From positions 1-36,329 of the IMG/VR virus record IMGVR_UViG_3300042861_002183: a stretch of 36,329 bases of DNA. The stretch is one strand, 5' to 3'. Both the position numbers and the translations under genes were made by a program. This DNA is from a virus. Position 1 is the stretch's first letter. Each line of letters starts with the position of its first letter. Positions 6,947 through 31,755 of this stretch are shown one piece after another. The notes below the pieces were generated by a model. That model saw nothing but the letters and a program-made list of their open reading frames with translations, was not told the DNA's origin and did not search any database.

Positions 6947-6961
6947 GCCCACCCACCCGCG

Positions 6962-7636
6962 TCAACAGTTGACGCCGCGCATCCTTCGCATCAGCGCCCA
7001 AGCCCGCTCCCGCGCCTCCTCCACCGGGCACAGTTCCGGCTCAGTGATGGCGCGTGTCTGCCGCGCCTTCTCCATCATCTCCCGGTCGGCCTCAGTCTCA
7101 AACTTCCGCCCGCCCTCACGGCTGTTGATCGTCTCATACAGCCACCGCGCCAGCCCTGCCGGCCATTCCATGATGATCTGCTCCGCTGGCAGCCCGCACT
7201 CCGCCAGCCGCGTCCACACTTCCAGCAGCGGCGGCGCATCCCGCCGGAAAAACACCCCGCCCGCGCCCTCCTCCGCCTCGCGCTCCAGCATTTCCGGCGC
7301 GTGCTCGCAGCTCTTCAGCCAGGCCCGCAGCACCTCAAAGTGTTTCGGCATGCGCCAACCATGGCACAGCACCCGCCACCAGGTGCGCAGCCGCACGCAG
7401 CGCCGGGGGCGTGCCAGCCAGCGCGCCGCCGCCCGTGGATGGCGGCGGCAGATTTCCACCACCAGATCCACATCCGGCAGCAGCAGCCGCCCACCGGTCA
7501 TGATCTCACTGCCCGCCATGCGCAGCAGTTCGCGGTGCATCAGGCTCAGCGGCCGCAGCTCATGCCCCAGCACACGCCAGCGCCCCGCCCCCAGCCAAGC
7601 CAGCAAACACTCATCCAGACGTGGAAAGTCATTCAT
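6962..7636 (-). CDS. probable tail assembly chaperone
   Basis: A 224-residue, Arg/Trp-rich helical protein immediately upstream of the tape measure, the usual position of tail assembly chaperones. No domain is recognised from sequence alone, so the call is positional. The C-terminus ends VNC, with its TGA inside the start element of the tape measure. I saw no obvious slippery heptamer near its end for a lambda G/GT-type frameshift. Its own ATG has GTTGACG at exactly 20 nt upstream, preceded by a long hairpin spacer. Confidence 0.5.
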   Translation of the reverse strand: MNDFPRLDECLLAWLGAGRWRVLGHELRPLSLMHRELLRMAGSEIMTGGRLLLPDVDLVVEICRRHPRAAARWLARPRRCVRLRTWWRVLCHGWRMPKHFEVLRAWLKSCEHAPEMLEREAEEGAGGVFFRRDAPPLLEVWTRLAECGLPAEQIIMEWPAGLARWLYETINSREGGRKFETEADREMMEKARQTRAITEPELCPVEEARERAWALMRRMRGVNC

Positions 7637-7692
7637 GCCCCACTCAAACCGTCAACGGCAGCACAGCCATTCCTTCATTCCACCATTCTGAC

Positions 7693-7747
7693 CCATTCTC
7701 AGTTCTTCCATCTCTCCACACCCCAAGCATGGAAGAACTGAGAATGG
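7693..7747. repeat. 19-bp perfect inverted repeat, spacer hairpin
   Basis: CCATTCTCAGTTCTTCCAT at 7693-7711 pairs perfectly with 7729-7747 around a 17-nt loop. Outer CACCATTCT/AGAATGGTG copies extend the symmetry. The hairpin stands between the tail-tube terminator and the start element of the next gene. It belongs to the same class of spacer hairpins found at 21893, 28351 and 30233, although its sequence differs. Confidence 0.8.
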
Positions 7748-7782
7748 TGGAACTAAGAATGGAGAATGGACTCCAGAACACG

Positions 7783-7811
7783 AAAAACGGCGGCCCCCAC
7801 AGGCCGCCGTT
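7783..7811 (-). terminator. intrinsic terminator after tail tube gene
   Basis: On the minus strand AACGGCGGCC pairs with GGCCGCCGTT (10 bp, loop TGTGGG), followed by a run of five T. It lies about 33 bp beyond the stop of the tail tube candidate and would limit read-through into the chaperone and tape measure genes. Confidence 0.85.
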
Positions 7812-7844
7812 CTCTCATGTGTCACTACTTACGACCCAAAAATA

Positions 7845-8237
7845 TCAAGCCGCGATCGTTGTGCTGGCGCTGCTGGTGATCTGGCTGAAGTTCACCGCCG
7901 TGATCGTGCCCGTGCGGAAATCGTCCTTCTTCACGGCTTTTTCCGCCGTGCGGCAGATATAGACCAGACCGCCATAGTTGAAGGTCTTGCCCTTCGCGGC
8001 GGCGAACAGCGCGTTGTTGGAAATGTAGCCATTCAGCGTCAGGCTCTTCTTGCCGCCATCATCCATGACGAAGGCCACGGTGCGGTTGAAGGCGTCCTTG
8101 GCCTCAGACTCGATCTCCGGCTCATCGGAAACGGTGACTTCTTGCGGGGTCAGACCGACTGTGGCCGCAATCGCCGCCGCCTCCGCGTCAGTGAAACCAT
8201 ATCCGTAACCCGTATTGCCAAATTGTTTGAGAGCCAT
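7845..8237 (-). CDS. probable major tail tube protein
   Basis: A 130-residue protein with alternating beta-type segments (TVAFVMDDGGKKSLTLNGYI, TFNYGGLVYICRTAEKAVK, GTITAVNFSQITSSAS). The small beta-rich composition, the position just before the chaperone and tape measure genes, and the strong terminator directly after it all fit the abundant tail tube subunit. There is no direct sequence signature, so a decoration-like protein is an alternative. The start element GTTGAC lies 23 nt before the ATG. Confidence 0.5.
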   Translation of the reverse strand: MALKQFGNTGYGYGFTDAEAAAIAATVGLTPQEVTVSDEPEIESEAKDAFNRTVAFVMDDGGKKSLTLNGYISNNALFAAAKGKTFNYGGLVYICRTAEKAVKKDDFRTGTITAVNFSQITSSASTTIAA

Positions 8238-8250
8238 GATGCCCTCCGCC

Positions 8251-8706
8251 TCATGTCAACACCGCGTCAGGCGTGTTGACCGGGCCACCCTCCTGTTTTT
8301 CCAGCACCCCGCAGCCCACACTCATCTCAAACAGCGTGCCTTGCTCCTGCTCGGTGTTCGCCGCCGTGCTGCGCTGCATCACAAAGCCGTAGAGCCGCAG
8401 TTCCTGCGTCTCATCCACCCCGGGGCGGGGCAGCATTTCCAGCGCGTCCCGCACTTCCCCCACCACCTTCGCGTGCTCAAGCCCGCTGCCTTCATCGAGT
8501 CCATGTGTCACCAGGATCGCCACCGCCACGTAAAACACACCGCTCTCCGGCGTTGTTTCCCGGGCTTCATCGCACTGCACCACGCCATAAGGCGGGTTTC
8601 CTTCGGGGCAGTCCTGGCTGGCATACCACTTCAGCCCAGGCACACGCCCGGCCAGTTCCTCACACAAGCTTTTTTCCAGACGGTATTGAATCGGCAGCAG
8701 GCTCAT
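8251..8706 (-). CDS. probable tail terminator / minor tail protein (gpU-like position)
   Basis: A 151-residue protein starting MSLLPIQYRLEKSLCEELAGRVPGL. The layout of an N-terminal helix, a beta hairpin (YGVVQCDEARETTPESGVFYVAVAI), then a helix and strands (HAKVVGEVRDALEMLP, LRLYGFVMQR) fits the tail terminator or completion fold. Its place between the connector-type gene and the tail tube candidate supports this. Family membership is inferred from context. The ATG has GTTGACG exactly 20 nt upstream, and the TGA of that element is the stop of the preceding gene. Confidence 0.5.
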   Translation of the reverse strand: MSLLPIQYRLEKSLCEELAGRVPGLKWYASQDCPEGNPPYGVVQCDEARETTPESGVFYVAVAILVTHGLDEGSGLEHAKVVGEVRDALEMLPRPGVDETQELRLYGFVMQRSTAANTEQEQGTLFEMSVGCGVLEKQEGGPVNTPDAVLT

Positions 8707-8721
8707 GCCCTGGCCTGCGCG

Positions 8722-9069
8722 TCAACGCCGCGAGGACAACGCCTCCACCTGCAAGTCCAACCCCGCGCCACCCAGATCCTCCACCACCGTCACTTTGCCC
8801 GTGAACGCCCCGCGTTGCACCTTCAGCCCCTTCAGCGTCAGTGCCGCCTGCTCCGCGTCTGTCACCAGCGCCTGCACCTGCGCCAGGCTCAGATGCACCA
8901 CGAAGGCGATGCCGCTGTTGCGCAGACCCCTCTCGCCCAAAAACGAACCAGCGGCAGCGGGCGCACCCACCACCGCTGTCACGCGTGCTTCACCCAGGAT
9001 CAACTCCTCACCCATTTCCGTCTCCAGAAACGCATCAGAAGCCGCCCAGGCGTCGTCAAAAGCGCCCAT
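8722..9069 (-). CDS. probable head-tail connector protein (FII-like position)
   Basis: A 115-residue protein, MGAFDDAWAASDAFLETEMG then mainly beta-type sequence (ITAVVG-type strand, GKVTVVEDLGGAGLDLQVEAL). The short N-terminal helix followed by strands, and the position just before the tail terminator candidate, resemble lambda FII-type attachment proteins. Sequence similarity is not obvious to me. It begins three bases after the TAA of the upstream gene and is probably translationally coupled. Confidence 0.4.
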   Translation of the reverse strand: MGAFDDAWAASDAFLETEMGEELILGEARVTAVVGAPAAAGSFLGERGLRNSGIAFVVHLSLAQVQALVTDAEQAALTLKGLKVQRGAFTGKVTVVEDLGGAGLDLQVEALSSRR

Positions 9070-9072
9070 GGC

Positions 9073-9519
9073 TTATGGAGTGGTGCCACCTGCCAGGAAG
9101 CCCAGCTTGATCTGCGTGGCGGTGTTCGCCACGCCAGCGATGAGCAGTTTGTCACCGCTGTCCGCAGGCGCGGGTTGCAGCTTGCCGGCCGTGCCAGAAA
9201 GCACCAGCACCTGCCCGGCCGCCATGACTTCCGTGGTTGTCGCTCCGGTGTCCAGAGTGTTATCAGAGGTCACCACCGAGAAACGGCAGCCATTGCCCGC
9301 GCAAGCGCTGGCCGCGAGGCCTTCGATGCCCGCGTTCGGCGCTGTGCTGCCACCGCTGGCCGAAGTGCTGCTGTCCGCGTCGCACTTGAACCACTTGTCC
9401 AGCGTGGCATCGCGGTAAACCGCGTCACCCACGGCGATGGACTCGCCCCCGATCACGGTTTGGACGGCGGCGGAGGAAGACGGTTTGAAATCAGCAGCGG
9501 TGAAGACGTAGAGGCCCAT
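9073..9519 (-). CDS. probable decoration or head-associated protein
   Basis: A 148-residue Ala/Gly/Thr-rich protein (IGGESIAVGDAVYRD, TTTEVMAAGQVLVLSG, IAGVANTATQIKLGFLAGG). Its composition is typical of small virion decoration or cement proteins. It contains two close cysteines (ACAGNGCRF). No definite family is recognised. The start element GTTGAC is 23 nt before the ATG and begins three bases after the stop of the upstream zinc-ribbon gene, so here the TGA of the element is not the stop codon. Confidence 0.45.
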   Translation of the reverse strand: MGLYVFTAADFKPSSSAAVQTVIGGESIAVGDAVYRDATLDKWFKCDADSSTSASGGSTAPNAGIEGLAASACAGNGCRFSVVTSDNTLDTGATTTEVMAAGQVLVLSGTAGKLQPAPADSGDKLLIAGVANTATQIKLGFLAGGTTP

Positions 9520-9542
9520 AATGCCTCACGCGGGATGTCAAC

Positions 9543-10741: not shown

Positions 10742-10745
10742 GCGG

Positions 10746-11402: not shown

Positions 11403-12160
11403 GAGGTGTAAATCTGGGTGTCCCAGCCGTTGCGCCCGGAAAGTTTCCACTCCCGTGAAATTTCATACACGACGCGGTTCACCACCCCACTCGGGTCGCC
11501 TCGGCGGCGGTAAGTAAAGCCCACATACAGCCAGTTGCGCCGCCCCAAGCTGCCTCGGAAGCCCGGGCCTGGCACATCGCCGCTGATTTCCCCAAACCCG
11601 CTAACGTGAGGCAGAGAGTAGCTCACGTAATTCTCCCGGTAGGTCATCACCGCGTCCAGATAACTCTCAATGCCCGCCTTGCGGTTCAGGCTCCCATCCA
11701 CATACGGGTAAAAGCTGTCGAAAACCGCCAACGTATTATCCGCCGAAGGGTATCCCGTGCTTGGGTCGATGAACAAGGCTCCATTCACCGGGGCGCTCGG
11801 TTTTCCCGCGATCGTCAGGAATTTCGGATGCGTGGAGATGGGCTGCTCCTCCATGCCGATGATCAGCTCATAACTTGGCTTCTCCAGGTTCTCGTAATTG
11901 ACCCCGGCATACGAGCACACCGCCTCCGCTCCATCCGCCCCATAGACCAACTCCTGCTGCTCCATCCACAACCGCCCATTGTAGGGGTGCGCTCCACCCA
12001 GAGGCCGCGCCGCCTGCAGGATCAGCCCGGCGCCGTAAGGTTCACCCTTGCAAGAGAACACACACTCCCCCTGCTCCAGGCCGTTGCGCTCACGCCGCGT
12101 GCGGGCCGAACCCGGCACGACATGAATCGCATAAGCACCTCCGAAAAGATTGATCGCCAT
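11399..12160 (-). CDS. hypothetical virion protein
   Basis: A 253-residue protein of beta-type composition (MAINLFGGAYAIHVVPGSA, SYELIIGMEEQPIST, NWLYVGFTYRRRGDPSG). It is likely a tail-tip or baseplate component by location only. The start is well supported: GAGGAGCGGGGGT precedes the ATG, and the GTTGAT variant of the start element lies exactly 20 nt upstream. It ends in an ATGA overlap with the next gene. Confidence 0.5.
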   Translation of the reverse strand: MAINLFGGAYAIHVVPGSARTRRERNGLEQGECVFSCKGEPYGAGLILQAARPLGGAHPYNGRLWMEQQELVYGADGAEAVCSYAGVNYENLEKPSYELIIGMEEQPISTHPKFLTIAGKPSAPVNGALFIDPSTGYPSADNTLAVFDSFYPYVDGSLNRKAGIESYLDAVMTYRENYVSYSLPHVSGFGEISGDVPGPGFRGSLGRRNWLYVGFTYRRRGDPSGVVNRVVYEISREWKLSGRNGWDTQIYTS

Positions 12161-12188
12161 ACCCCCGCTCCTCTATCAACCCACCCAT

Positions 12189-12355: not shown

Positions 12356-12787
12356 TTAATATTTCGGCTGGACGAGCACCGGTTGCTTGGCGCTGGTGAG
12401 GACCTTGCGGACTTCGCGGAGCGCGGCGGCGTCGTCGGCGGTGTAGAGCTGTTTGCGTTCGCCGTAGCCGATGGCGATGGCGGAGAGGGGAGCGAGGTAG
12501 GAGCAGCTTGGCAGACTCAAGAGACAGAGGGAGGCGATGAGGAGCTTCGGCGTGTTGGTGCCGAGCCAGATGGCGGAGAGCCAGCCGCGCATGCCGGTGC
12601 CGTTTTGCAGCGCTTTGAGCCAGCGCCCGATCATCATCAGGGTGATGAGGCCGAGGCTCGTGTAACCGGCATACTGCGCAGGCACGGCGGCATCCACGGC
12701 GGCTTGCAGCGCGGGATCAACGGCCTGTGCGGAGAGTAGGGGGCAGAGGGCGAAGAGCAGGAGGCAGGAGAGGAGGAGGGTTTTCAT
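12356..12787 (-). CDS. exported membrane protein, holin/lipoprotein-like
   Basis: A 143-residue protein. Residues 1-22 are a signal peptide (MKTLLLSCLLLFALCPLLSAQA), followed by a probable span (YTSLGLITLMMIGRWLKAL). A second hydrophobic stretch, IASLCLLSLPSC, ends in a lipobox-like sequence in the middle of the protein and precedes an acidic/basic tail. It reads like a holin-type segment fused to what was once a small lipoprotein, though no internal ATG precedes the lipobox. Together with the neighbouring membrane genes it suggests a lysis cluster far from the lysin. Confidence 0.5.
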   Translation of the reverse strand: MKTLLLSCLLLFALCPLLSAQAVDPALQAAVDAAVPAQYAGYTSLGLITLMMIGRWLKALQNGTGMRGWLSAIWLGTNTPKLLIASLCLLSLPSCSYLAPLSAIAIGYGERKQLYTADDAAALREVRKVLTSAKQPVLVQPKY

Positions 12788-12858
12788 GACGTGGTTAAGC
12801 AGGTGTCAAAAGTCAGAGGGACGAGGTTGACGGGATTGACCGGAGTGACGGCGCTCAT
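12784..12858 (-). CDS. possible 24-residue linker ORF
   Basis: This tiny ORF overlaps its upstream neighbour by ATGA and its downstream neighbour by TCATGA, so it would couple translation of the two. Its DNA carries a GTCAATCCCGTCAAC repeat related to the dispersed GGTCAATCCGGT element. The peptide (MSAVTPVNPVNLVPL and so on) has no known role. It may be only a coupling device or a repeat-derived ORF. Confidence 0.3.
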   Translation of the reverse strand: MSAVTPVNPVNLVPLTFDTCLTTS

Positions 12859-16559: not shown

Positions 16560-16581
16560 ACCCACGCGCCCGTATCAACCC

Positions 16582-16612
16582 AAAACAAAACCGCCACCCC
16601 GAAGGGTGGCGG
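16582..16612 (-). terminator. intrinsic terminator after major capsid gene
   Basis: On the minus strand CCGCCACCC pairs with GGGTGGCGG around a TTCG tetraloop, followed by TTTTGTTTTG. It lies just beyond the capsid stop and after a short AACTTCA heptamer run (16615-16640). Confidence 0.9.
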
Positions 16613-16644
16613 CAACTTGAAACTTCAAACTTCAAACTTAGAAC

Positions 16645-18419: not shown

Positions 18420-19211
18420 TCAGGCGTGGCGCGGGCGGATGCCGCGAGCCACCTGCCAATCTTCATAGAGGTCGGGGTGGTGCTTGGTGGCGAACTCGAC
18501 CGCACGGGCCTGCACCGTCACCTTGCTTTCCGCAGGAGCCGCCTTGGCGAACTCCGTGGCGTAGTGCGCCGTGGCCTGCTCGAAGGTCGTGATCTGGCCG
18601 CCGCCACCCTGCGGCTTGGCCGCGAAGAAGGTTTCGGCTCCGGCGCTGGTCTTGCCCTTGGTAGAGGCGAACTTGCGCAGCTCGGCGTTCTCGGCCTGCA
18701 GCGCTTCGATCTGGCCTTTGGCCTGTGCCGCGAACTCGGTGAGCTGGCCCGTCTTGGCCTGGAGCGAATTGAAAGCGATGACTTCCTGGCGCTGGGCCTC
18801 AGCAGCCTCACGGGCGGCGAGCGCCTGATTCACCGCGTGCTGGCTCATGATGCTGAACGCGGTGAGGACATCCCCGCGTGCCATGGCCGCAGCGGCTTCA
18901 GCAGGCACACCTTCAGCGGCCTCGCCGCCTTCGCCTTCTTCACCCTCGCCACTGCCGTCGTCATCGCCATCGGCGTCCTCGGCTTGCTCAGCCAGCGAGA
19001 AGGTGCCGTCGCCGTTATCGACGAGCGTGCCGTCTTCGAGACCGGCCTGGATTTCCTCTTCGGAGATTTCGTCGTCGTCGCTGCCGCCCTCTTCCATGGC
19101 GTCCATGCGCTCATTGATGGAATCGAGTTTGTCAGAGAGAGCCTGAGCCCAGGCGGGCATCTGCGCATCGGCAGCAGGAATTTCAACAGGGGAAGTAGAT
19201 GGGTTAGCCAT
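18420..19211 (-). CDS. nested head scaffold protein (in-frame internal start)
   Basis: The internal ATG at 19211 opens MANPSTSPVEIPAADAQMPAW exactly at the border between protease and scaffold. It is preceded by GTTGACAGCGGG at 21 nt, the same element that precedes independent genes of this array. The product would be 263 residues, the acidic and coiled-coil scaffold. Known parallel: lambda C/Nu3, where the scaffold is translated from an internal in-frame start of the protease gene. Separate translation here is inferred, not shown. Confidence 0.6.
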   Translation of the reverse strand: MANPSTSPVEIPAADAQMPAWAQALSDKLDSINERMDAMEEGGSDDDEISEEEIQAGLEDGTLVDNGDGTFSLAEQAEDADGDDDGSGEGEEGEGGEAAEGVPAEAAAAMARGDVLTAFSIMSQHAVNQALAAREAAEAQRQEVIAFNSLQAKTGQLTEFAAQAKGQIEALQAENAELRKFASTKGKTSAGAETFFAAKPQGGGGQITTFEQATAHYATEFAKAAPAESKVTVQARAVEFATKHHPDLYEDWQVARGIRPRHA

Positions 19212-19799
19212 GCTCTCTGGCCCGCTGTCAACACCTCGCGCTGAAAACATCCCCTCGGGATTCGCCGCCGGGCTGGCCACGAGGTCCGTGCTCACCAGCT
19301 CCGTGCATCGGGCAAACAGCTTCGTGCCCGCCACCACCGCTTGGCGCTGCCCCCCCTTGAGCGTGTAGTGCTGCTTCAGTTCTTGGTCGAAATACACCGC
19401 CGTGCCATCCGCCAGCTCGGGATCGCCCCGGAAGGCCACGGAAAGCCCCACGCTCTCCGGCATCTTCTCCGCCATCTCCATGAGATGCGGCGTCGTCGGG
19501 TAAGTTTTGAGCAGCACCCAGTCTCCGCGCACCTTGTCGCCGTCGATGCGGAAGTTGCACAGGTAGCCATTCACCGCATCCACCCCACTGCCGTGATTCG
19601 TCTTCACCGGCACCTTCCCCATGCCCACCGCGCATTCGTAGATCTGCTTCAGCGTGGTCTTATCCACCTGCAGCCCGTGGCCCTTGGCCTCCAAATCTCC
19701 GGTGATCATGGAGACCCCATGGATGGTCCCCTTATCCGCATTGACGACGGCGTCCTTGCTCTTGACCTGAAACGTGTGAACGGCAGAAAGTGTGCTCAT
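18420..19799 (-). CDS. prohead protease with C-terminal scaffold region
   Basis: A 459-residue protein. Residues 1-190 look like a prohead maturation serine protease, with a conserved His in VKTNHGSG and Ser in SVGLSVAF, flanked by beta-type segments (GTIHGVSMITGDLE, LVSTDLVASPAANPEGMF). The last 263 residues are acidic and low in complexity (DDDEISEEEIQAGLEDG, EGEEGEGGEAAEG), then a coiled coil (QIEALQAENAELRKF), typical of a head scaffold. The protein would assemble inside the procapsid and be degraded. The ATG at 19799 has GTTGACG 22 nt upstream. A second start element lies inside at the scaffold boundary. Confidence 0.75.
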   Translation of the reverse strand: MSTLSAVHTFQVKSKDAVVNADKGTIHGVSMITGDLEAKGHGLQVDKTTLKQIYECAVGMGKVPVKTNHGSGVDAVNGYLCNFRIDGDKVRGDWVLLKTYPTTPHLMEMAEKMPESVGLSVAFRGDPELADGTAVYFDQELKQHYTLKGGQRQAVVAGTKLFARCTELVSTDLVASPAANPEGMFSARGVDSGPESMANPSTSPVEIPAADAQMPAWAQALSDKLDSINERMDAMEEGGSDDDEISEEEIQAGLEDGTLVDNGDGTFSLAEQAEDADGDDDGSGEGEEGEGGEAAEGVPAEAAAAMARGDVLTAFSIMSQHAVNQALAAREAAEAQRQEVIAFNSLQAKTGQLTEFAAQAKGQIEALQAENAELRKFASTKGKTSAGAETFFAAKPQGGGGQITTFEQATAHYATEFAKAAPAESKVTVQARAVEFATKHHPDLYEDWQVARGIRPRHA

Positions 19800-19876
19800 A
19801 GGCACCACGCCCGCCGTCAACGGAGCCGCAAGGCTCCCCTCGTCCTACTCGTCCTCCTACTCGAACTCGTCCTCGA
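19800..19876 (-). repeat. GAGGACGAG repeats and hairpin between genes
   Basis: Between two minus-strand genes lie imperfect repeats of GAGGACGAG and GAGTAGGA, then a hairpin (GGAGCC, loop TTGC, GGCTCC), then the GTTGACG start element of the protease gene. The hairpin has no T tract. Confidence 0.55.
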
Positions 19877-20975: not shown

Positions 20976-20980
20976 GAAGG

Positions 20981-22232: not shown

Positions 22233-25200
22233 CTACGCCGCCGCTGGCGGTTGCTTGGGCGGCTGCGGCTTGAAGTTCACCGCTTGGATATTGGTCGGCT
22301 TCTTCTCAGCGCGCATCTTCCGCACCTTCTGCAACGCGGCACGGATCTTGGCACGCTCCGCCTTCACAGCGTTCGTCACCTGCCGCCCCATCAGCTTCCG
22401 CATGGCCGCCCCGCCTGCCAGCGTGCTCGTCAGCGCTGCCCCGGCCCACAGCTTGCGCTCGTTCTCCACCTTCTCATGCCAGCGCTTCGGGCGGCGATCC
22501 CGCTGCCCGGCCTGCGGTGCAAACACCCGCGCCGAGTTCCCCCGCGCATCGCGGATGTCCCAGCCCACATCGAGCGGGTCCGCGAACTGCGTGAGCGCCT
22601 GAATCGCCATGCAGTTCCACCGGCGCAGGGCCGCACCCTTCGGCGTGAGCTCACCCCCCTTCGACGTCGCCCCCGGCATGCCGCCCATGCGGGCGCAGAA
22701 CGACTTCCGCCGCCCCGCCGCTTCCGAGCCTGCCTTCAGCTTCGAGGGCTTCGTCGTCACCGGCCGCTTGAGGTTGCTGCCATGCTCACGGTTGTAGCTC
22801 TTCCGAAAGCCATCGTTGAGCCCTCCCGTGCGGGCATGCCGCTTCGCGTTGTAACCCGCGAACGGCTTCTCGAACTGCGTGAGCGCCTGGAGCAGCAGGC
22901 GGTTCATCTCCCACTTGCCGGTCTTGCCGTTGTAAGTCGGCTGCTTGGGAGCCGCCACGCCCGGCTTCGGCTTCCGAGGCTGCTTCGGCTTCGACGCGGC
23001 CTTTTGCGGCGCAGGCGTGTTGGAAATCTGCGACTGCCCCCAAACGGAGCCGCCGCCAGAAGACGCGGAGGCCGGGGGAGGCGGCGACTTGGAGACGGGA
23101 GTTTTGGAGACCGCAGGCTTGGCCGGGGCAGGGGACTTCGGCTCCGGCACCAGATTCAGCTCCGGTCCCTTCGCCGCTGTTTTCTTCTTGGCCTTATCCA
23201 ACTCAGCCGCCTTTTTACGCGTGGCTTTGGCCTGCGCCTCCGTCTGCTTCAAGATGTCCGCAGGCGTGCTCTGCGGCTTGCCCGTGACTTTGGCATTGTG
23301 CGCGGCCCGCGCGGCTTCCGTGCCTTCATCCGGGAAGACGTTCGCCAGCTTCTTGTTCGCCCAGGTCCGCGCTTTGCCGATCGCCTCCTCACCCTTGCGC
23401 ACGGCCCGTGCTCCCACCTTCGTGTGGCGGCCCACGTAGCCTGCCGCCAGCAGCCCCGCCCCAGCGATGAGCTGATTGCGCCGGCGCTGGAACCACGGCT
23501 TTTCCCACTCGCGCTTCTTCTCGCGGCCCCAGCGATCTTTCTCACGCGCCTCACCCTTGGCCGCCTTCACCGCATCGCGCACGAGTCCACCGCCACGCTC
23601 GGACACCTTGCGCACGGTGTCCGCCTTCCGCAGCGCGGAATGCAGCACCTGCCCGCCCGCCACATCCACCGCCTTGTTGGCTTTGATGTCGGCCATCGCC
23701 CCTTGAATCTTGGCGATCTGCTCCGGCGTCAAATCCCGGCCCAGCAGACGACGGCGCAGCTTGTGGTAATCCCCCACATCCGCCCGGCGATACCCCTTCT
23801 CACCCTTGAGCCACTTCGAGAATGGATCCACGAAACGGCTGTTCTCGAGATCGGCAAGTTGTTCATTGCCCCCGAACTCATGAATCGCCCGCAGCGCCAG
23901 CGCATTGAACTCCCCCTCCTCCTTCCGCTGCCGCAGCCCCCCGGTCAGGAACGAACCCGCCGCACCTCCGACAATCCCACCTGCGTTCTCCGTCGCCAAA
24001 GCGCCGACGCGAGCAGCCCGCTTTGCCCAGACACCCGGCCCATACTTTTGGCGAATAGCCCGATACACCTTGCTGCGCATTTGACTCCCCGCATATGCCC
24101 CGCCCAGCGTCCCTGCAACGGTCCCCAGCGCCCCCAGGATGAACTCGTTCAACGCCTGCCGCGACTGCATCCGCTTCTCCGGCAGTGCCCGCACGGGTAG
24201 CCCAGTATCCGCGTCGATCAGCGGCCCTTTACCCCGATGCACCGTCTTGTCGCGCTTCGCCGGATTCCGGCGGCGGGCCATCACCTCCCGCTTCCGCGCC
24301 GCTTTCTTCGCCCATTTCATCAAGCCAGGACGCGCCTTCACAAGGCCTGCCGCCCCCAATCCCAGGCCAATCCCTGGCAGCAGATTGTCCTTGATGTTGC
24401 GGCCGATCGCCCCAACCACCTTCGCCGCGCGATTGTGCAGTTTGGGTGTGTTCAATTCTTCATCTTCAGCGCGGTTGATTTTCTTCTGCTTCATTGCCCG
24501 TGCCAGCAGCGCCGCCGCCGCACCCGCACCCGCCACCTTGCGGTTCACCCCACGCCGACCCTTGAGCAGCCCACCCCCGGCCAGCGCCAAACCCGCGCCT
24601 CCCGCCGCATGCAGCGGATAGGACATCGTGCCACCCTCCGCATACGCCTTGGCGAGCGCCGCCTTCGTTTTACCCATCACCGGTTGCTTGTCCTTGGGCG
24701 TCATTTTCTCATGCGCTTTGCGGGCCAGCTTCTCGGCAATCTTCCCGCCAGCCAGTTGCGCAGCCACCGGCAGCAAACCTGCCGCGATGGCGTAGCCTTT
24801 TTTCGGCCCCACATCAATCTTTACGCCACCCAAAGGATGCCCACCCATCTTCGGCATGGTGAACGTGTCACGCGGCGCTTTTTTCAAGAGGCTCATCGAA
24901 CCTTTCAAACCAGCCACCAGACCACCCGCTTGGCCCACCTTGTCCGCTCCAGCCGCTAGGTATTCACGCTTCCGCCAGCCGTCCAACCGCTCATTCTTCG
25001 GCTCCTGATCCTTGGAACTTGGCACCTTGAACGTGAAACTTGGAACTTGGCTTTCCAACAGCCGCAGCTTCTTGCCGATCCGCACCGTGCGCTTCGCCCA
25101 CAACGGCGCAGGCTTGGCAGCGGCCTCCCGCATGCCACCCTTGAACGCATCCGCCGAATCCGTGACCACCTTGCGGGCCTTGCGATACACGCGGCCCATG

Positions 25201-27659
25201 TCGGCACCGATGCTGGTGGCGTTCTGAATGTTGTCCGTCACCTGCGGCACCTGGCGCATGGCGGCACGCCCGCGCTTCGCCAGTCCGGCGATGGCCTTGC
25301 CGCCTTGGTGCGCCAGATACCCAGCACCTCCCACGGTGGCCGCACCGCCCGCGATGAGCGCCCCATCCCGCGTCTTCTGCCAGTTGTCCCGCTGCGGTAG
25401 CTGGACGATCACCGGCTCACGCCGCCGGGCAAAGGCCTGCACCGGACGTGGATCATCGTGCATCCATGAGCCGACAACCTTGGCAGCTTTGATGAACGGT
25501 TCTACAACCGCCTTACCGCCTTTAGCCACCGCCCGTCCCACGGCTTTCCCCCCCCGCGTGACCGCACTCGGCAGCGCCACTGCCTCCTCGATATTGGCCG
25601 CTGCTTTGCGGCTGCGGATCGCTGTGCGCCCCCAGGCACGAGCGGAGGCCTTCACCTGCGGCGCAACGTCGTTGATAGCCTTCCGCCCCGCACGATAGAG
25701 CTTCACGCCGCCGATCCCCGCCGCCGTGATTCCACCCAGCCCGGCCACATCTTTGGCAAGGCCGATCTTGTCCCGCAGATCCCGCACGCGGTTCTTGCGG
25801 GCCTCCTCAAAGAGGTGCAGGAGCATGGCATTGACGCTCATCTGCTTCTCTTCACGCTTGCGTTTCGTCATCGCACCCACGGCAGCACCACCAACCGCCG
25901 CGCCTCCCACCGCGCCGCCCACCAAGGCACGGGTCTGGTAGCTCTTGCGGCCCTGCCCGGCGATGTCGCGGGCGTGATGCTCGCAGTTGTTGCCGATGAG
26001 GCACAGATCCCCCCGCTTGGCCTTGCCCTGCGCGGCATCGTGGCGTTTCTCCATGCCTTTGGCCCACTCACCCCACTTGCTGGAATCCTTCGGCAGCGTG
26101 TCGCTGTCCACATGGATGCGATTTCCCCGGGAGAAACCGTCCTTATCCACCATGCGCTGGCCGTGCGCCTTGGTCTTTTCGATCACGCGACCACCTCCGG
26201 CACCCACACCGTAATGCCGCTGTGGGACGCCCAGGAAGTCATCCACCTTCAGCGCCGCACCAGCCAGCTTCGATCCCTTGAGCGCCTTCTTTTCGAGGCG
26301 ACGCCGCACCGTCTTGCCGCCGATGTTTACCACACTGGCAGGCGTGGTCAGACCCTCATGAGTGTAAAGCACCTTACCCGCCAGCTCCTCACCGTCCTTC
26401 AAAGGACGCCCCCGCCGGATTAGGCGCGGCAGCGTGCGGGCACCCAGCACCGCGCCCGCCGTGGCTCCTGCCGCAATCGCCGCTTTGCGCTTCCATCCAG
26501 ATTTCTTTTTCTCCTGCTCGAACTGAGTCAAAGCCGCGCCATTCGCCATCTGGCAGCCGCATCCGCCCGCCTTCGTGCCCAGCCGCGCCGGCGTCAAATC
26601 CAGCACATTCAATGAACTGGTGATGCCTGCCCGCTCCGCTTTGGCCAGGAAGTGATGCCCATCGATGATGCGGTCATTCATCAACAGCACATACTTGCCG
26701 CCAGCCTTGATCTTCCCCAGCACCTCAGCCGCAGCGCGACTGGCCCGCAGGGTGCCTAGCGCTTTCCGCGCCGTCTTGAGGTTCATGGGGTCGGCCTTGC
26801 CGAGCAGTTCTTTCACCGTCATGCCGTAATGCACCACCGGCGTGCCTTTCTCGGCATCCACAAACCGCAGCACGTCCTGTTGCACCTCCTTGGGCAGGCC
26901 AGAGAAGGTCATGTCCTCGATGTAGGCGCTCAACTGCGTCTCCGCCGGATTCGCGCCGATGTTGGAGACGGCCTTGACCACCTTGCGCTTCAGGCGCTTT
27001 TTGACGGTCTTGACCGCGTCTCCCAGCGTCGGCTCCGTGGGCGCTTTCGGCAGGGCTTCGGCGCGGAACTTGGCACGGGCGGCTTCCACGGCTTGATTGG
27101 CCGCGCGGGCATTGCTCAGATCCTTGCGCTTCTGCTGCGCTTTCATGAGCCGCACCCGGCGCGGATTCCCGCCAGGCGCTTTGGACAGCAGACCGCTCAG
27201 CGGATTCCCGCCTGCCATGGCACTGCGCAGGGCATTGCGCCCGCGTGCGCTGCACAGCACCAGCCCACCCGCTGCCAGCGTGCCCCCGGCGGCGAGGGCG
27301 GCTTTCTGCCCCGGCGTGAGCGGTTTTTTACCATCCTCGAAACGCCAGTCGCCACCCCCAGCCACGGAGTCGGCGGTGTCCTTGCTTGGTTTGGCGATGA
27401 GGCCCAGGCCCGCGCCTGCGGCCCCGCCAACCCGAGCGCCATGAATCGTCAGCGTCCTGCGGCGCGTCCGCGCCACCTTGCGCACCACTTGGGGGAGCTT
27501 GACCTTGCCATCCAGCACCATGCTGCCGAGGTAGGCTCCAGCCGTGCCGGAGATGAGCGCGTCCCGCAGGCGATCCCGCACCGTGGGCCGCGCCTCCTTT
27601 TTGGCAAAACAGATCAACTTGGAACCTAACACTTGAAACTTGAAACGGGGTGAAGCCAT
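22233..27659 (-). CDS. giant internal-head-type polyprotein with ParB-like and LRAT-like domains
   Basis: 1808 residues, very rich in Ala, Gly, Lys and Arg. Segments: ParB/sulfiredoxin-like fold about 252-362 (GKYVLLMNDR, IIDGHHFLAKAERAG); LRAT-like papain-fold domain about 420-585, with H482 in RHYGVGAGGGRVIE and C559 in GNNCEHHAR (the NCEH motif); and a phage motif at about 1604-1683 (YNREHGSNLK, RRKSFCARMGGMPG, ALRRWNC). At least eight glycine-zipper, membrane-type segments are spread along the chain. A helix ending in LTQF/LNEF/IHEF recurs at 371, 607, 1167, 1251, 1585 and 1684, often following a Met. It lies between portal and protease, where MuF-type and ejection proteins are encoded. 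The start at 27659 has GGGGAGGT and a TTTGAC element 21 nt upstream. It probably travels inside the head and enters the host membrane (inference). Confidence 0.6.
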   Translation of the reverse strand: MASPRFKFQVLGSKLICFAKKEARPTVRDRLRDALISGTAGAYLGSMVLDGKVKLPQVVRKVARTRRRTLTIHGARVGGAAGAGLGLIAKPSKDTADSVAGGGDWRFEDGKKPLTPGQKAALAAGGTLAAGGLVLCSARGRNALRSAMAGGNPLSGLLSKAPGGNPRRVRLMKAQQKRKDLSNARAANQAVEAARAKFRAEALPKAPTEPTLGDAVKTVKKRLKRKVVKAVSNIGANPAETQLSAYIEDMTFSGLPKEVQQDVLRFVDAEKGTPVVHYGMTVKELLGKADPMNLKTARKALGTLRASRAAAEVLGKIKAGGKYVLLMNDRIIDGHHFLAKAERAGITSSLNVLDLTPARLGTKAGGCGCQMANGAALTQFEQEKKKSGWKRKAAIAAGATAGAVLGARTLPRLIRRGRPLKDGEELAGKVLYTHEGLTTPASVVNIGGKTVRRRLEKKALKGSKLAGAALKVDDFLGVPQRHYGVGAGGGRVIEKTKAHGQRMVDKDGFSRGNRIHVDSDTLPKDSSKWGEWAKGMEKRHDAAQGKAKRGDLCLIGNNCEHHARDIAGQGRKSYQTRALVGGAVGGAAVGGAAVGAMTKRKREEKQMSVNAMLLHLFEEARKNRVRDLRDKIGLAKDVAGLGGITAAGIGGVKLYRAGRKAINDVAPQVKASARAWGRTAIRSRKAAANIEEAVALPSAVTRGGKAVGRAVAKGGKAVVEPFIKAAKVVGSWMHDDPRPVQAFARRREPVIVQLPQRDNWQKTRDGALIAGGAATVGGAGYLAHQGGKAIAGLAKRGRAAMRQVPQVTDNIQNATSIGADMGRVYRKARKVVTDSADAFKGGMREAAAKPAPLWAKRTVRIGKKLRLLESQVPSFTFKVPSSKDQEPKNERLDGWRKREYLAAGADKVGQAGGLVAGLKGSMSLLKKAPRDTFTMPKMGGHPLGGVKIDVGPKKGYAIAAGLLPVAAQLAGGKIAEKLARKAHEKMTPKDKQPVMGKTKAALAKAYAEGGTMSYPLHAAGGAGLALAGGGLLKGRRGVNRKVAGAGAAAALLARAMKQKKINRAEDEELNTPKLHNRAAKVVGAIGRNIKDNLLPGIGLGLGAAGLVKARPGLMKWAKKAARKREVMARRRNPAKRDKTVHRGKGPLIDADTGLPVRALPEKRMQSRQALNEFILGALGTVAGTLGGAYAGSQMRSKVYRAIRQKYGPGVWAKRAARVGALATENAGGIVGGAAGSFLTGGLRQRKEEGEFNALALRAIHEFGGNEQLADLENSRFVDPFSKWLKGEKGYRRADVGDYHKLRRRLLGRDLTPEQIAKIQGAMADIKANKAVDVAGGQVLHSALRKADTVRKVSERGGGLVRDAVKAAKGEAREKDRWGREKKREWEKPWFQRRRNQLIAGAGLLAAGYVGRHTKVGARAVRKGEEAIGKARTWANKKLANVFPDEGTEAARAAHNAKVTGKPQSTPADILKQTEAQAKATRKKAAELDKAKKKTAAKGPELNLVPEPKSPAPAKPAVSKTPVSKSPPPPASASSGGGSVWGQSQISNTPAPQKAASKPKQPRKPKPGVAAPKQPTYNGKTGKWEMNRLLLQALTQFEKPFAGYNAKRHARTGGLNDGFRKSYNREHGSNLKRPVTTKPSKLKAGSEAAGRRKSFCARMGGMPGATSKGGELTPKGAALRRWNCMAIQALTQFADPLDVGWDIRDARGNSARVFAPQAGQRDRRPKRWHEKVENERKLWAGAALTSTLAGGAAMRKLMGRQVTNAVKAERAKIRAALQKVRKMRAEKKPTNIQAVNFKPQPPKQPPAAA
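25012..25055 (-). repeat. AACTTGG heptamer repeat inside coding sequence
   Basis: GGAACTTGGCACCTTGAAC and following heptamers belong to the AACTTGA/AACTTCA family seen between genes at 16615 and 30233. Here they are translated in frame, giving roughly residues 868-883 of the giant protein (LESQVPSFTFKVPSSK). A second in-frame piece near 27620-27649 encodes RFKFQVLGSK at its N-terminus. Confidence 0.7.
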
Positions 27660-27782
27660 AGACCTCCCCGCCGTGTCAAATGCCCGCGCCGTTGACAAGC
27701 GGCGGAAGACCTCTCCGAGGGTGCACAACCCTCACTCCATAGCCCACGCGGCAGGTCGCAAGACCTGCCGCGTTTTTTGTGG
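27660..27782. other. spacer with two hairpins
   Basis: The spacer between the giant gene and the 74-residue gene holds a TTTGAC start-element variant at 27675-27680, a hairpin GAGGGT/ACCCTC (27717-27733, loop GCACA) and a strong plus-oriented terminator (separate entry). I see no gene in it. Confidence 0.5.
27746..27778 (+). terminator. plus-oriented intrinsic terminator within minus-strand operon
   Basis: ACGCGGCAGGTC pairs perfectly with GACCTGCCGCGT (12 bp, loop GCAA), followed by TTTTTT on the plus strand. No plus-strand gene lies upstream, so it faces against the late operon and would stop antisense transcription. On the minus strand the hairpin is not followed by T residues. Confidence 0.75.
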
Positions 27783-28007
27783 CTACCCGCCGAACTTCCA
27801 CGCCTCCTCCTTCTCCCACAGATACACGCGCCGGTTCTGCTCCTCGGAGAGTCCCTCGTGGAAGACGTAGATGTGCGTCTTTTTGGCTTCATCATGGATC
27901 CTCACCCGCCGCATGTCCGCCGTGTGCATGAACTCCTTGCCATCACACGGCCCCCGATGGGCATAACCGCGCAGATGATCAGGTTTGCTGGTGATTGTTT
28001 CCGCCAT
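27783..28007 (-). CDS. hypothetical small protein
   Basis: A 74-residue protein starting MAETITSKPDHLRGYAHRGP, then HTADMRRVRIHDEAKKTHIYVFHEG. The ATG lies two bases after the stop of the gene for the SSB-tip-like protein (TGAGCATG), so the two are coupled. The composition is of mixed alpha/beta type; no family recognised. Confidence 0.5.
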   Translation of the reverse strand: MAETITSKPDHLRGYAHRGPCDGKEFMHTADMRRVRIHDEAKKTHIYVFHEGLSEEQNRRVYLWEKEEAWKFGG

Positions 28008-28009
28008 GC

Positions 28010-28327: not shown

Positions 28328-28350
28328 GCCCCGCCCACGGCGTCAACGGG

Positions 28351-28434
28351 AGCCAGACTGGGAGAAGAGGAGACTGGGAGAAGAGGAGTGGAGGAAATTC
28401 AGAGTCTCCGAGTCTCAAAGTCTCCCAGTCTTCA
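28351..28434. repeat. AGTCTCC array with 11-bp inverted repeat
   Basis: AGACTGGGAGA (28355-28365) pairs perfectly with TCTCCCAGTCT (28421-28431), with further AGTCTCC/GAGACTGGG units between them. It fills the spacer after the portal stop and stops 7 bp short of the GTTGAC element of the next gene. Confidence 0.8.
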
Positions 28435-30195
28435 CCCCTCCGGCACCGCCTCCTCCGCCTCCGCCAGATCCAGCCCATAGCTCACGACGAGGATCTGCAC
28501 CGCCTGCTCCCGCGTGAGCTCGCCACGGTTCATCTGCTTCATCACATCGAGCAGGCCTTTGACCGCATCCTTGCCATGCGCCGCCGCGAGTCCTGCTGGC
28601 ACCGGTGGCATGCCTTCTTGACCGGATTGACTGGATTGACCAGATGGACCTTGCGGACCAGCCGCCTGATCGAGCACCGCACCCTCGGCAGCGGGATCTC
28701 CCCGGCCATTCATGGCGGCCATGAGCTGCGTGGCATTCTGCCAGCGTTGGCTTTGCAGCTCCACCGGCACGCCGGTCTCCGCCGCCACACGCTGGCGGGT
28801 CTGCATCTCGCGGGCCTGGGTGTAGCAGTGCTCTTCGAAGTCGCCGCCATACTTGCCTTCAATGAGGTTGCTCTCACTGAAAATGCCTGCCGAAAGGAGG
28901 GAGATGTCGGCATTCGTGTCGTGGCCGACGTCGCCGGTGATGTCGGGTCCAAAACCCCAGCGGCCTTTGCCAAACTTCGGATGCGCCGGGATGAGGCCCA
29001 GCGCGATCCCCCGCCGCAGCACGCGATCCTTCAACGGATCCAGCATGCGGGTCATGGCCACCGTGCGGATGTCGTCGAGCGTGCGCTTCATCTGCGCCAC
29101 CTCGATGCGGGCCGTGACGCCGCCAAGCAGCGCCAGATTCCACACGAAGCCGAACGGCACATTGAGCCCCACACTGATCTCCCGCACCTTGGCCTCAAAC
29201 CACGCCATGAAGGCTCCCGAAGGCCGTGAGGCACCGGGGGCGAATTCGATCCTCTGCCCCCCCGTGAGATTCTGGATGGTGCCGGGCTTGACGCTGTATT
29301 TGTTCCCACCGTCCGGCTTCTTCTCGGAGTCGAAGGCCATCGCCGCCTGCTCACTAAACGGCGTCTCGTTGTAGGTGAAGGCCGCGTAGCTGGCGGCGAA
29401 CTTGATGGCGTCCATCTCCGCGCCGAGCGCCTCATAGAGATCCCGCATGTGGGGCAGGGCCGGGGCACCCCAGCTCACCCCGCGATACTGATCCACCCGC
29501 AGCGGGTCAAAAACGTGCAGGAACCGCTCCGGCGGCAGCTCCGCCTCCAGGTCATACTGATTCGAGGGCTTGCGCTTGTAGATCTCGTAAATCAGCGGCT
29601 CTCCGTGCTCGCCCAGTTTGATGCCTTGCACCTTCTTTTCATCCGGCATCACCGGCATCGTGGGATTGCCAATGCGATCCGCCTCGATCCCCCGGATGCG
29701 ATATTCCCCGCTGGCCTCGTCGTCATGCAGCGCCAGGCCGAAATCCCGGTCCCGCAACATGCTGCGGATGCCCAGTCGGGCGATGACAGGGAAGGGGTGC
29801 CGCTGCGTCAGGTCGGCGCGTTTGCCCCACTCCTCCCAGTAAGTTTCATGCGCCTCATCAATCGCCGCGTCCCCGGTGCGGCTCTGCCACACGATCTTGC
29901 CCAGCGCATACTGCGTGGTGCGCGTGAGGATGCCGCGCCAGAGGCAGAAATTGCTCTCCATGTCCCGGCTCTCCCACATGAGCTGGATGGCGTCCTGGGA
30001 GACCCGTGAACTCTCCGGGCTGCCATTGCGAAACAGGCTCCCGCCCGCCGTGCCCCGCCGCCCCGTGTTCTTGGCCCCATCGTAATCGAAGCGAGTCAGG
30101 AGCGCCCGCGACGCCATCCGCTCCACCCCCCATTTCGGCGACACAACGGCCACGGCTTTGTCAATGAACGAGGTGAATGCAGACGGTTTTCCCAT
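28432..30195 (-). CDS. portal protein (lambda gpB family)
   Basis: A 587-residue protein. The N-terminus (MGKPSAFTSFIDKAVAVVSP), the central NPTMPVMPDEKKVQGIKLG and LLGGVTARIEVAQMKRTLDD region and the C-terminal helical tail follow the pattern of lambda-type portals, which form the dodecameric DNA gate at one capsid vertex. The small gpW-like gene upstream supports this, but no terminase gene is present next to it. The C-terminus contains a GQSSQSGQEG run encoded by a GGATTGACTGGATTGACC repeat (28620-28640). GTTGACG lies exactly 20 nt before the ATG. Confidence 0.9.
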   Translation of the reverse strand: MGKPSAFTSFIDKAVAVVSPKWGVERMASRALLTRFDYDGAKNTGRRGTAGGSLFRNGSPESSRVSQDAIQLMWESRDMESNFCLWRGILTRTTQYALGKIVWQSRTGDAAIDEAHETYWEEWGKRADLTQRHPFPVIARLGIRSMLRDRDFGLALHDDEASGEYRIRGIEADRIGNPTMPVMPDEKKVQGIKLGEHGEPLIYEIYKRKPSNQYDLEAELPPERFLHVFDPLRVDQYRGVSWGAPALPHMRDLYEALGAEMDAIKFAASYAAFTYNETPFSEQAAMAFDSEKKPDGGNKYSVKPGTIQNLTGGQRIEFAPGASRPSGAFMAWFEAKVREISVGLNVPFGFVWNLALLGGVTARIEVAQMKRTLDDIRTVAMTRMLDPLKDRVLRRGIALGLIPAHPKFGKGRWGFGPDITGDVGHDTNADISLLSAGIFSESNLIEGKYGGDFEEHCYTQAREMQTRQRVAAETGVPVELQSQRWQNATQLMAAMNGRGDPAAEGAVLDQAAGPQGPSGQSSQSGQEGMPPVPAGLAAAHGKDAVKGLLDVMKQMNRGELTREQAVQILVVSYGLDLAEAEEAVPEG

Positions 30196-30232
30196 GCCTG
30201 CCCCGCCGCGTCAACAGAACCAAACCGTTTCA

Positions 30233-30293
30233 AGTTTCAGGTTCAAAGTTCCAAGCTCCCAAACCTTGAACTTTGAACTTTGAACCTGAAACT
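30233..30293. repeat. heptamer array with perfect 19-bp inverted repeat
   Basis: AGTTTCAGGTTCAAAGTTC (30233-30251) pairs perfectly with 30275-30293. The arms are built from AACTTTG/AACCTGA heptamers. It lies in the spacer upstream of the portal, before the GTTGAC element at 30210-30215. Confidence 0.9.
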
Positions 30294-30299
30294 CAAAAC

Positions 30300-30560
30300 T
30301 CACAACCCCAACACCTTCCGCACCAGCTTCCGCTGCTCCTCCGCCCCGGCGGCCCGCGCTTGCTCCACGATGAGCTTCATCGCCCCGGTGACGTCCACCT
30401 CGATGTCGGAGGGGATTTGCAGCGTGACGCCGTAGCCCATGAACACGCCCCAGAGGGGGGATTCCGTGGGCATCGCCTTCATGCCCACCGCCGCCATGGC
30501 CCGCATCGTCACCGGCGGGCAGGCGGTGTCGAGTTCTTGAAGGTGATCGTAGTGCGCCAT
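30300..30560 (-). CDS. hypothetical small protein before portal
   Basis: An 86-residue protein starting MAHYDHLQELDTACPPVTMR, with a beta-type middle (PLWGVFMGYGVTLQIPSDIEVDV) and a helical C-terminus (LIVEQARAAGAEEQRKLVRK). The ATG at 30560 is two bases after the stop of the tiny upstream gene (TGACCATG), so it is coupled. No family recognised. Confidence 0.5.
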   Translation of the reverse strand: MAHYDHLQELDTACPPVTMRAMAAVGMKAMPTESPLWGVFMGYGVTLQIPSDIEVDVTGAMKLIVEQARAAGAEEQRKLVRKVLGL

Positions 30561-30562
30561 GG

Positions 30563-30724
30563 TCAGAAGGAAATCCAGGTGATGGTGAAAAATGAACGCT
30601 GGATGAGCACATTGCGCAGGACCGCGATCTCCGGGCAGCAAGTCCACACCAGCGGCATCATGAACGCCAGCATGCAGATTCTAAGGCGTGGCCGAAGGTT
30701 AAAAAAAACACGCATCAACTTCAT
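30563..30724 (-). CDS. 53-residue membrane-type protein
   Basis: A short ORF starting MKLMRVFFNLRPRLRICMLA, with a hydrophobic stretch (MLAFMMPLVWTCC) and a second hydrophobic end (RSFFTITWISF). GGGAGGGG lies nine bases before the ATG, the clearest Shine-Dalgarno in this part of the array. It lies between the gpW-like and the pre-portal genes. Its function is unknown. Confidence 0.5.
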   Translation of the reverse strand: MKLMRVFFNLRPRLRICMLAFMMPLVWTCCPEIAVLRNVLIQRSFFTITWISF

Positions 30725-30739
30725 GCTTTACCCCTCCCG

Positions 30740-30979
30740 TCAATACCCGCTGAAACTCACCGTGCCCCGATGGCTGGTGCTGGCGTGGCTGCGCTCATTC
30801 TGCACCCGCACCGCTGCCCGCAGCATGTCGTCGATCCGGCGCAAATCCTGCGTGTAGGCCTTGCTGCCCACGCTTTGGGAAAGGTAGCCACTCCGGGACT
30901 TTTTCAGCCGCGTGACCTCCTCCGTCAGCTCCTGCGTGGAAAACGACTGATAGACTTCGAGGTGATCCGTGTAGGCCAT
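30740..30979 (-). CDS. gpW-like head-tail joining protein
   Basis: A 79-residue protein (MAYTDHLEVYQSFSTQELTE, then VTRLKKSRSGYLSQ, RRIDDMLRAAVRVQN, RGTVSFSGY at the end). The size, the helix-strand-helix layout and the position just upstream of the portal match lambda gpW and its relatives, which plug the portal channel and build the head-tail joint. The ATG at 30979 is chosen because GTTGACG sits exactly 20 nt upstream; a GTG nine bases earlier is an alternative. The TGA inside that element is the stop of the 31-residue gene. Confidence 0.65.
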   Translation of the reverse strand: MAYTDHLEVYQSFSTQELTEEVTRLKKSRSGYLSQSVGSKAYTQDLRRIDDMLRAAVRVQNERSHASTSHRGTVSFSGY

Positions 30980-30994
30980 GCCTGCCACGCCCCG

Positions 30995-31090
30995 TCAACG
31001 CCGCCACATCGCGAGGATCATCCACACCAGCAACACGCCAGCGGCAAACACCGCGCCGCAGGCTGTGGCCAGGTTGTGCGGCGTCATCAT
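30995..31090 (-). CDS. 31-residue membrane peptide
   Basis: A tiny ORF starting MMTPHNLATACGAVFAAGVL, with one membrane span and a basic end (MWRR). The ATG overlaps the lysin stop (ATGA), and its own TGA falls inside the start element of the next gene. The size and position directly after the lysin suggest a lysis-related role such as a holin or spanin component; this is inference. Confidence 0.5.
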   Translation of the reverse strand: MMTPHNLATACGAVFAAGVLLVWMILAMWRR

Positions 31091-31590
31091 ACCGTGAAAC
31101 GGATGCGGCTGCGGATGCTGGACGCAGCGCGTTTCTTGCGTAGCACGGCACCCCCCTCCCGACTGCCCGCGCCATCCGTGTTGCCTTCGATGGTGGGCAC
31201 ATCGCCGTTTTTATCGACCGCGCCCGTGGCGATGCCGACGTGTGAAAACTTGAAAATCACGATGTCCCCGGCACGGATGTCATTGCGGTGCGGCTTGCGT
31301 GTGTGTGTGCTGGCATCCTGTGTCTGGCTCCAGTTCTCCAGATCCCACGCGCCCGCCGTGCGGGGCCGCTTGAAAGTCTTCGTTTCCGGCACACCGCTGA
31401 TGCGCAGCGCCTCGCGCACGCACCAGCACACAAACGCCGCGCACCACGGCCAGGACTTGTCCGCTGGTAGCCAGGTCGCCGCCTTGTATTCATTCACGCG
31501 CGGACCGCAGTTGCTGCCGTTGATTTCAGTCACACCGAGTTCCTGCGAGGCCACAGCCACCAACACAGGAGGTAGTAAAGGAGCGCTCAT
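31087..31590 (-). CDS. CHAP-type endolysin (amidase/endopeptidase)
   Basis: A 167-residue protein with the NlpC/CHAP papain-like pattern. GVTEINGSNCGPRVNEY is followed by the catalytic Cys in WPWCAAFVCWCVREA (C50), the His in FKFSHVGIATG (H117) and the polar residue in TIEGNTDG (N137). It cleaves peptidoglycan cross-links. There is no signal peptide, so it needs a holin or similar release. It is the first gene of the leftward array, far from the holin-like genes at 12.2-13.1 kb. GTTGACG lies exactly 20 nt upstream of the ATG. Confidence 0.8.
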   Translation of the reverse strand: MSAPLLPPVLVAVASQELGVTEINGSNCGPRVNEYKAATWLPADKSWPWCAAFVCWCVREALRISGVPETKTFKRPRTAGAWDLENWSQTQDASTHTRKPHRNDIRAGDIVIFKFSHVGIATGAVDKNGDVPTIEGNTDGAGSREGGAVLRKKRAASSIRSRIRFTV

Positions 31591-31755
31591 GCCCCGCGCC
31601 CCGCGTCAACGCCCCGCCTGCTTTCATCCATCATCCTTCCTCCTTCCTCCTTCATCATTCATCATTCATCCTTCATCCTTCCTCTTTCCGCCCTTCCCAC
31701 CTTGACGCCCAGCGTGAAAGCCCGCACGCTCCACCCCCCTCGCCACGCCGACACC
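31591..31755. promoter_or_regulatory. divergent control region with CATCCTT repeats
   Basis: The region separates the leftward virion array from the rightward arm. It holds the lysin start element (31605-31610) and a long CATCCTT/CCTCCTT/CATCATT run (31622-31687). I cannot identify -10/-35 boxes with confidence; the polypyrimidine run lies where a late promoter would be expected. Confidence 0.45.

Follow-up and report, generated by a model that had tools for sequence, protein, structure and literature searches.

A TTGAC element at a short, nearly fixed distance before late-gene start codons in a lineage of Verrucomicrobiae phages, and its possible role as a promoter core

Many genes of the partial phage genome in IMG/VR virus record IMGVR_UViG_3300042861_002183 (36,329 bases, analysed at full length and called the window here) begin shortly downstream of the same five letters, TTGAC, and the question raised by this locus is what these letters do. 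Our analysis, which rests on sequence evidence as a whole, indicates that the element belongs to the late genes of one lineage of Verrucomicrobiae phages. It is probably, at odds that we put at about 0.55, the core of their late promoter, from which mRNAs with no leader or almost none would arise. No published description of a TTGAC start element was found in literature searches, and Rfam gave no match.

A positional signal in the late genes of one phage lineage

Spacings are counted from the first T of TTGAC to the start codon, so that 19–23 nt corresponds to 14–18 nt between element and start codon. TTGAC stands at 19–23 nt before 13 of the 27 starts on the minus (late) strand of the window, where 0.13 would be expected (binomial P ~2e-23). 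Over the window as a whole GTTGAC shows no more than a slight excess (21 versus 13.5 expected), and the signal is therefore positional. An earlier note on this DNA, made from the letters alone, had described fourteen minus-strand starts with GTTGAC or a variant of it, nine at 20 nt and five at 21–23 nt from the first letter of the hexamer, and no plus-strand gene with it. All fourteen sites exist at those positions and spacings, and the plus-strand genes of the window do lack the element. However, a fifteenth site, before the ATG at 12787, had been overlooked, and the hexamer has to be shortened: the core is TTGAC, its leading G being preferred and not required.

The sites, all on the minus strand, are given here with distances from the first letter of the hexamer. 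GTTGAC lies 20 nt before the ATG codons at 6946 (site 6961..6966; tape measure gene 3536-6946), 7636 (7651..7656, with an intrinsic terminator upstream in the same intergenic region), 8706 (8721..8726), 28327 (28342..28347), 30195 (30210..30215; portal gene), 30979 (30994..30999) and 31590 (31605..31610; endolysin-like gene). It is found 23 nt before those at 8237 (8255..8260) and 9519 (9537..9542), 22 nt before that of a putative protease-scaffold gene at 19799 (19816..19821), and 21 nt before an internal in-frame ATG of the same gene at 19211 (19227..19232). TTTGAC precedes the ATG at 27659 by 21 nt (27675..27680) and that at 12787 by 23 nt (12805..12810). GTTGAT, whose TTGAT is one of the few variants over-represented at that spacing, precedes those at 12160 (12175..12180) and 16559 (16574..16579) by 20 nt.

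The window holds lambda-family portal, tape measure and endolysin-like genes, and the portal gene (28432..30195, minus strand; PF05136, E 1.4e-42; phrog_21) served as the marker for finding relatives. The closest is a 63.6-kb contig, IMGVR_UViG_3300034064_001787 (L239), with an identical portal and ~28 kb more sequence. The portal site is kept in a 72% relative (L009), and a broken, truncated portal gene in a Verrucomicrobiaceae metagenome-assembled genome (L127:2074-2400) has GTTGAC exactly 20 nt before its ATG; this fossil points to the Verrucomicrobiaceae as the host group of the window phage.

Twenty related viral contigs, most of them chosen by the motif, have 2–13 matches each to GTTGAC-N13..18-ATG, nearly all on one strand, compared with 0–1 in the reversed control. 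Sixty prophage regions surrounding portal homologues in Verrucomicrobiae genomes were chosen solely on protein similarity, with a portal profile itself built from contigs found mostly via the motif. Genes in them were called with a simple, crude coding-score caller of our own, with ATG and GTG starts, and the G-numbered genomes are drafts. These regions hold 113 matches on the portal strand versus a mean of 18 in letter permutations and 19 on the opposite strand, and TTGAC stands at 19–23 nt from 183 of 1174 ATG/GTG starts.

The TGA of the element is the stop codon of the upstream gene in three window cases, among them 6961..6966, where it ends gene 6962-7636. This would suit a chance or codon-driven overlap with such stops, but that explanation is refuted by the window P value, by the prophage excess over both permutations and the opposite strand, and by the strict position and gene-family conservation; upstream stop codons had been set aside in the earlier note as well, with good reason.

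HK97-portal prophages of the same host class carry the element at 0 of 231 starts, and eight lambda-portal phages of other hosts at 2 of 154, a background level that rules out a general trait of lambda-portal phages. A host-wide start signal was also rejected, given that GTTGAC at −25..−18 precedes 0 of 266 ATG starts on the host chromosome and the element is not enriched in the whole host genome. The earlier note had proposed that chance would be indicated by equal frequencies in shuffled or unrelated genomes, or by homologous genes lacking the element at this spacing; permutations, unrelated phages and homologues (below) all speak for a genuine signal. In element-negative prophages the only other start motif was an AAGGA-like Shine-Dalgarno (SD) sequence. 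As a separate observation, genes of host G143 (L228-L237) have TTGAC 37–45 nt before ATG, the distance that sigma-70 promoters should show if their leaders are very short.

In the prophages the element begins ~10 kb upstream of the portal and runs on through the late genes. It is present at ~3% of starts from −24 to −12 kb, at 14–61% from −10 to +9 kb and at 3 of 144 on the strand opposite to the portal, so that the early region and the opposite strand stay at ~2–3%. This is the pattern of a late promoter, that is, of a sequence repeated before late genes only, and the element therefore tracks the phage lineage and the late region, not the host ribosome or general promoters.

Homologous genes and a start within a gene

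Conservation follows gene families. The element was found before 6 of 7 protease genes, 16 of 22 members of a 103-aa head family, 17 of 25 gpW-like and 10 of 18 major-tail-like genes. Families that follow in tight coupling (tail-chaperone-like) have it in 0 of 18 and 0 of 16 cases, compared with about half to 86% in the other families, which supports the earlier proposal that it marks genes obliged to start independently.

In phage lambda, the scaffold Nu3 starts in frame inside the protease gene C. A similar layout is present in the window gene 18420..19799 (minus strand), where the ATG at 19211, counted as a gene start in the earlier note, does carry the element but is a nested in-frame start that leaves 264 codons. 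The protease and scaffold roles are suggested by position and composition, the gene having no strong family match. In all 11 protease homologues compared (31–100% identity), TTGAC occurs at the gene start and again 19–23 nt before an internal in-frame ATG, ~147–196 codons in, where a Nu3-like scaffold would start. Ten of the 11 come from contigs found via the motif, usually by the first site, or from their relatives. The internal site was not part of the selection, and one homologue (L182) is wholly unselected. At the internal site the possible spacings are restricted to those that put no TGA in frame, and no others occur. The difference from lambda C/Nu3 is that here both starts carry a phage element.

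Shape of the signal and abutting terminators

The consensus is [G/T/A]TTGAC[A/G]C-N9-GG[C/T]-[A/G]TG. A or G follows the final C of TTGAC, the prophage consensus being TTGACA, and single-letter variants are nearly absent, save a few CTGAC and TTGAT. In element genes GG[C/T] precedes the start codon, with mostly C or T at −1 and A or G at +1, and at exactly TTGAC-N14 the start codons are ATG in 102 cases, GTG in 39, TTG in 1 and CTG in 0. Pooled over the prophages, TTGAC counts at spacings of 16 to 24 nt are 1, 0, 0, 95, 46, 26, 36, 13 and 3 on a background of ~2.1 per position, which is a hard lower edge with a short upper tail; at 24–95 nt upstream TTGAC is only mildly over-represented, in part through mis-called starts. 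The one-sided spacing, the pyrimidine/purine junction and the absence of TTG starts suggest that RNA begins between TTGAC and the start codon.

The −35 box of sigma-70 promoters is TTGACA, the same letters as the prophage consensus. Nevertheless, a sigma-70 promoter is ruled out, as the aligned sites have no conserved −10 hexamer ~17 bp after TTGACA, and the normal geometry at 19 nt would start RNA inside the gene.

Nor is the element an SD site, which would be a purine-rich complement of the anti-SD lying some 5 to 12 nt before the start. SD-like motifs are in fact depleted, with SD-like 4-mers in 15 of 216 element genes (7%) versus 19% of other genes. It is here that the main rival of a promoter comes in, namely a translation-initiation signal in which UUGAC, ~14–18 nt before the start, is read by the ribosome or by a phage RNA-binding protein and replaces SD pairing. 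The SD depletion, the spacing locked to the start codon and the marking of an internal in-frame start would all agree with it, and SD sites are listed as scarce in Akkermansia and certain other Verrucomicrobia (PMC10783764). However, host genes and same-class HK97-type phages do not use the element, which argues against a signal that ribosomes read in general. The spacing has its edge on one side only, TTG is missing among the start codons, and a spacer hairpin shows no covariation above shuffles. We regard such a signal as unlikely, although it deserves serious attention.

Terminators provide a further line of evidence. At 16582..16613 (minus strand) an intrinsic terminator, GCCGCCACCC-TTCG-GGGTGGCGG-TTTTGTTTT, ends 2 nt short of the GTTGAT that precedes gene 16559, and it is also present in relative L240. 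The arrangement in the window reads GCCGCCACCCTTCGGGGTGGCGGTTTTGTTTTGGGTTGAT-N14-ATG. In two relatives the terminator runs into the element, as GGGAGGGGGCTTTTTTTGAC-N14-ATG in L185 and CCCCCGGCCTTTTTGTTGAC-N14-ATG in L242, and the T-tract merges with TTGAC in both of these and in L245 and L200. According to a terminator finder of our own, terminators lie within 45 nt of the start in 15 of 257 element genes versus 14 of 1259 others, being five times as frequent (Fisher P 1.5e-5). If these terminators work, transcription of the gene that follows can only start within the short stretch that separates TTGAC from its start codon.

Terminators that end inside or just before TTGAC would keep the element out of read-through mRNA, which is a further difficulty for a translation signal. 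They also bear on RNA processing, in which a phage nuclease would read UUGAC and cut a long late transcript ~14 nt downstream to leave leaderless mRNAs. Such cutting would equally account for the one-sided spacing and the pyrimidine/purine junction at the start codon. Nonetheless, no long transcript would form with terminators placed directly upstream, and no nuclease candidate tracked the element; we consider processing very improbable. An operator, at which a repressor or other helix-turn-helix (HTH) protein binds TTGAC near the start and controls transcription begun elsewhere, would be suited by a strict, short motif. It is hardly more probable than processing, given that the element is asymmetric with no palindrome, keeps a fixed distance from the start codon, and has no room for another promoter between an abutting terminator and the start.

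A candidate factor and comparable systems

Comparison of element-positive and element-negative genomes led to two neighbouring orphan genes that lie where the early and late regions meet, both on the plus strand: famA (L239:16179-16841), which encodes an HTH protein, and famB (L239:16868-17749), with a ParB/Noc-leaning fold that is not significant and a weak DUF1016_N match. famA is missing from the window, since the window does not include the part of the genome in question. At strong score famA is present in 20 of 20 element-positive and 0 of 11 element-negative genomes (P 1e-8, or 3e-6 when weak hits near E 1e-13 in two genomes, G049 and G116, are both counted), statistics that take no account of phylogeny, with positives and negatives mixed along the portal score ranking. 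One genome, G304, with a truncated contig, a single element and no famA, was left out of the positives. None of six HK97-only genomes has famA at strong score. Outside the portal-selected regions, famA loci (G242, G158 twice, G234 and G190) have strict element matches 1–7 kb downstream on the same strand; the sole strict match in the 3.2 Mb of G242, and two of three in the 4 Mb of G158, lie ~6 kb downstream of famA on the same strand.

In the predicted structure of famA the C-terminal HTH is confident (mean pLDDT 82). That the gene tracking the element encodes an HTH protein speaks against both a translation signal and a nuclease. On the other hand, famA is as similar to KorA-type repressors as it is to sigma domain 4, which lends something to an operator.

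We propose that a phage-encoded initiation factor, most likely famA and perhaps with famB, would bind TTGAC and direct RNA polymerase, which we assume to be that of the host, to the element. RNA would then start ~14 nt downstream of the C of TTGAC, on the start codon or 0–4 nt before it, and the resulting mRNAs, leaderless or nearly so, would not need an SD sequence. The element would head the transcription units of the late region, one of them beginning at the nested scaffold start within the protease gene, and transcription could restart through it right after terminators. Three readings had been suggested in the earlier note: a signal for translation start, one for processing, or a phage-specific promoter whose leaders are very short. 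Of these, the promoter fits best with the terminators, the spacing edge, the pyrimidine/purine junction and famA, and a translation start is its strongest competitor. More tentatively, and at less than even odds, the virion genes may be expressed through many separate leaderless transcripts, with a small phage HTH factor reading the 5-bp TTGAC 14 nt from the start codon, no −10 box, and the nested in-frame scaffold start included.

Several points weigh against a promoter. The spacer is GC-rich (73%, versus 60% upstream), which is odd for a region that needs to melt, and it is this, together with the missing −10 box, that holds our confidence where it is. Versions of the element with longer leaders, which a promoter would allow, are rare, and the abutting terminators could be leaky. 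The nearest folds of famA, sigma domain 4 and KorA, are weak matches, none of them significant, and famA may be a mere lineage marker, co-occurrence being no proof of function.

A search with PF00940 (T7-type RNA polymerase) gave no match in 24 genomes or records, nor did its positive control. In T4, sliding clamps are involved in late transcription. One phage gene, L239:3051-4262, has a match to a sliding clamp domain, that of DNA polymerase III beta (PF02767, E 1.9e-6).

Known phage systems resemble the element in part. The Start-Associated Sequences (SAS/ESAS) of cluster K mycobacteriophages comprise a 13-bp GGGATAGGAGCCC, about half of them with 17-bp inverted repeats (PMC3203893). Both are short, conserved, asymmetric sequences that stand just before numerous start codons within a single phage group, have mostly the same orientation and are conserved per gene family, and the mechanism of SAS/ESAS was left open. 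In contrast, only TTGAC and GG[C/T] are conserved here, 14–18 nt from the start, without SD or inverted repeats, and the genes marked are late virion genes of Verrucomicrobiae phages. Membership of SAS/ESAS, with GGGATAGGAGCCC next to the start, was rejected on the different consensus and spacing and a negative spacer pairing test. The late promoters of phiKZ-type phages (AACA-N6-T[A/G] in AR9, with leaders of 26-491 nt, and TATG in phiKZ) are used by phages that encode multisubunit RNA polymerases (PMC5312081). They are similarly very short, are repeated before many late genes, start RNA on a purine and depend on phage-specific machinery, as we infer here. Unlike them, our element is tied in position to the start codon, and the T7-type search, which was without a working control, found no phage RNA polymerase.

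In phages of a poorly studied phylum, the element amounts to a code for virion-gene expression that is shared across a lineage and comes with a named candidate factor. The element reveals start codons that gene finders miss, such as that of the nested scaffold, and makes a late regulon definable from the letters alone. If the promoter reading is true, transcription would begin from a single short element without any −10 box and give leaderless output, which makes for a compact system testable in vitro.

Three other features of the window were noted. The gene at 22233-27659, 1808 codons from the ATG at 27659, is very long and rich in basic and glycine/alanine segments, with homologous pieces in L108 and L009. 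A tandem coding repeat of the KPEDGKPEDG type lies at 32880-33010, within gene 32441-33232. Finally, pyrimidine-rich leaders of the CATCCTTCCTCC type precede plus-strand genes at 2040-2130, 31620-31690, 34270-34310 and 35705-35745, a start context unlike that of the TTGAC genes.

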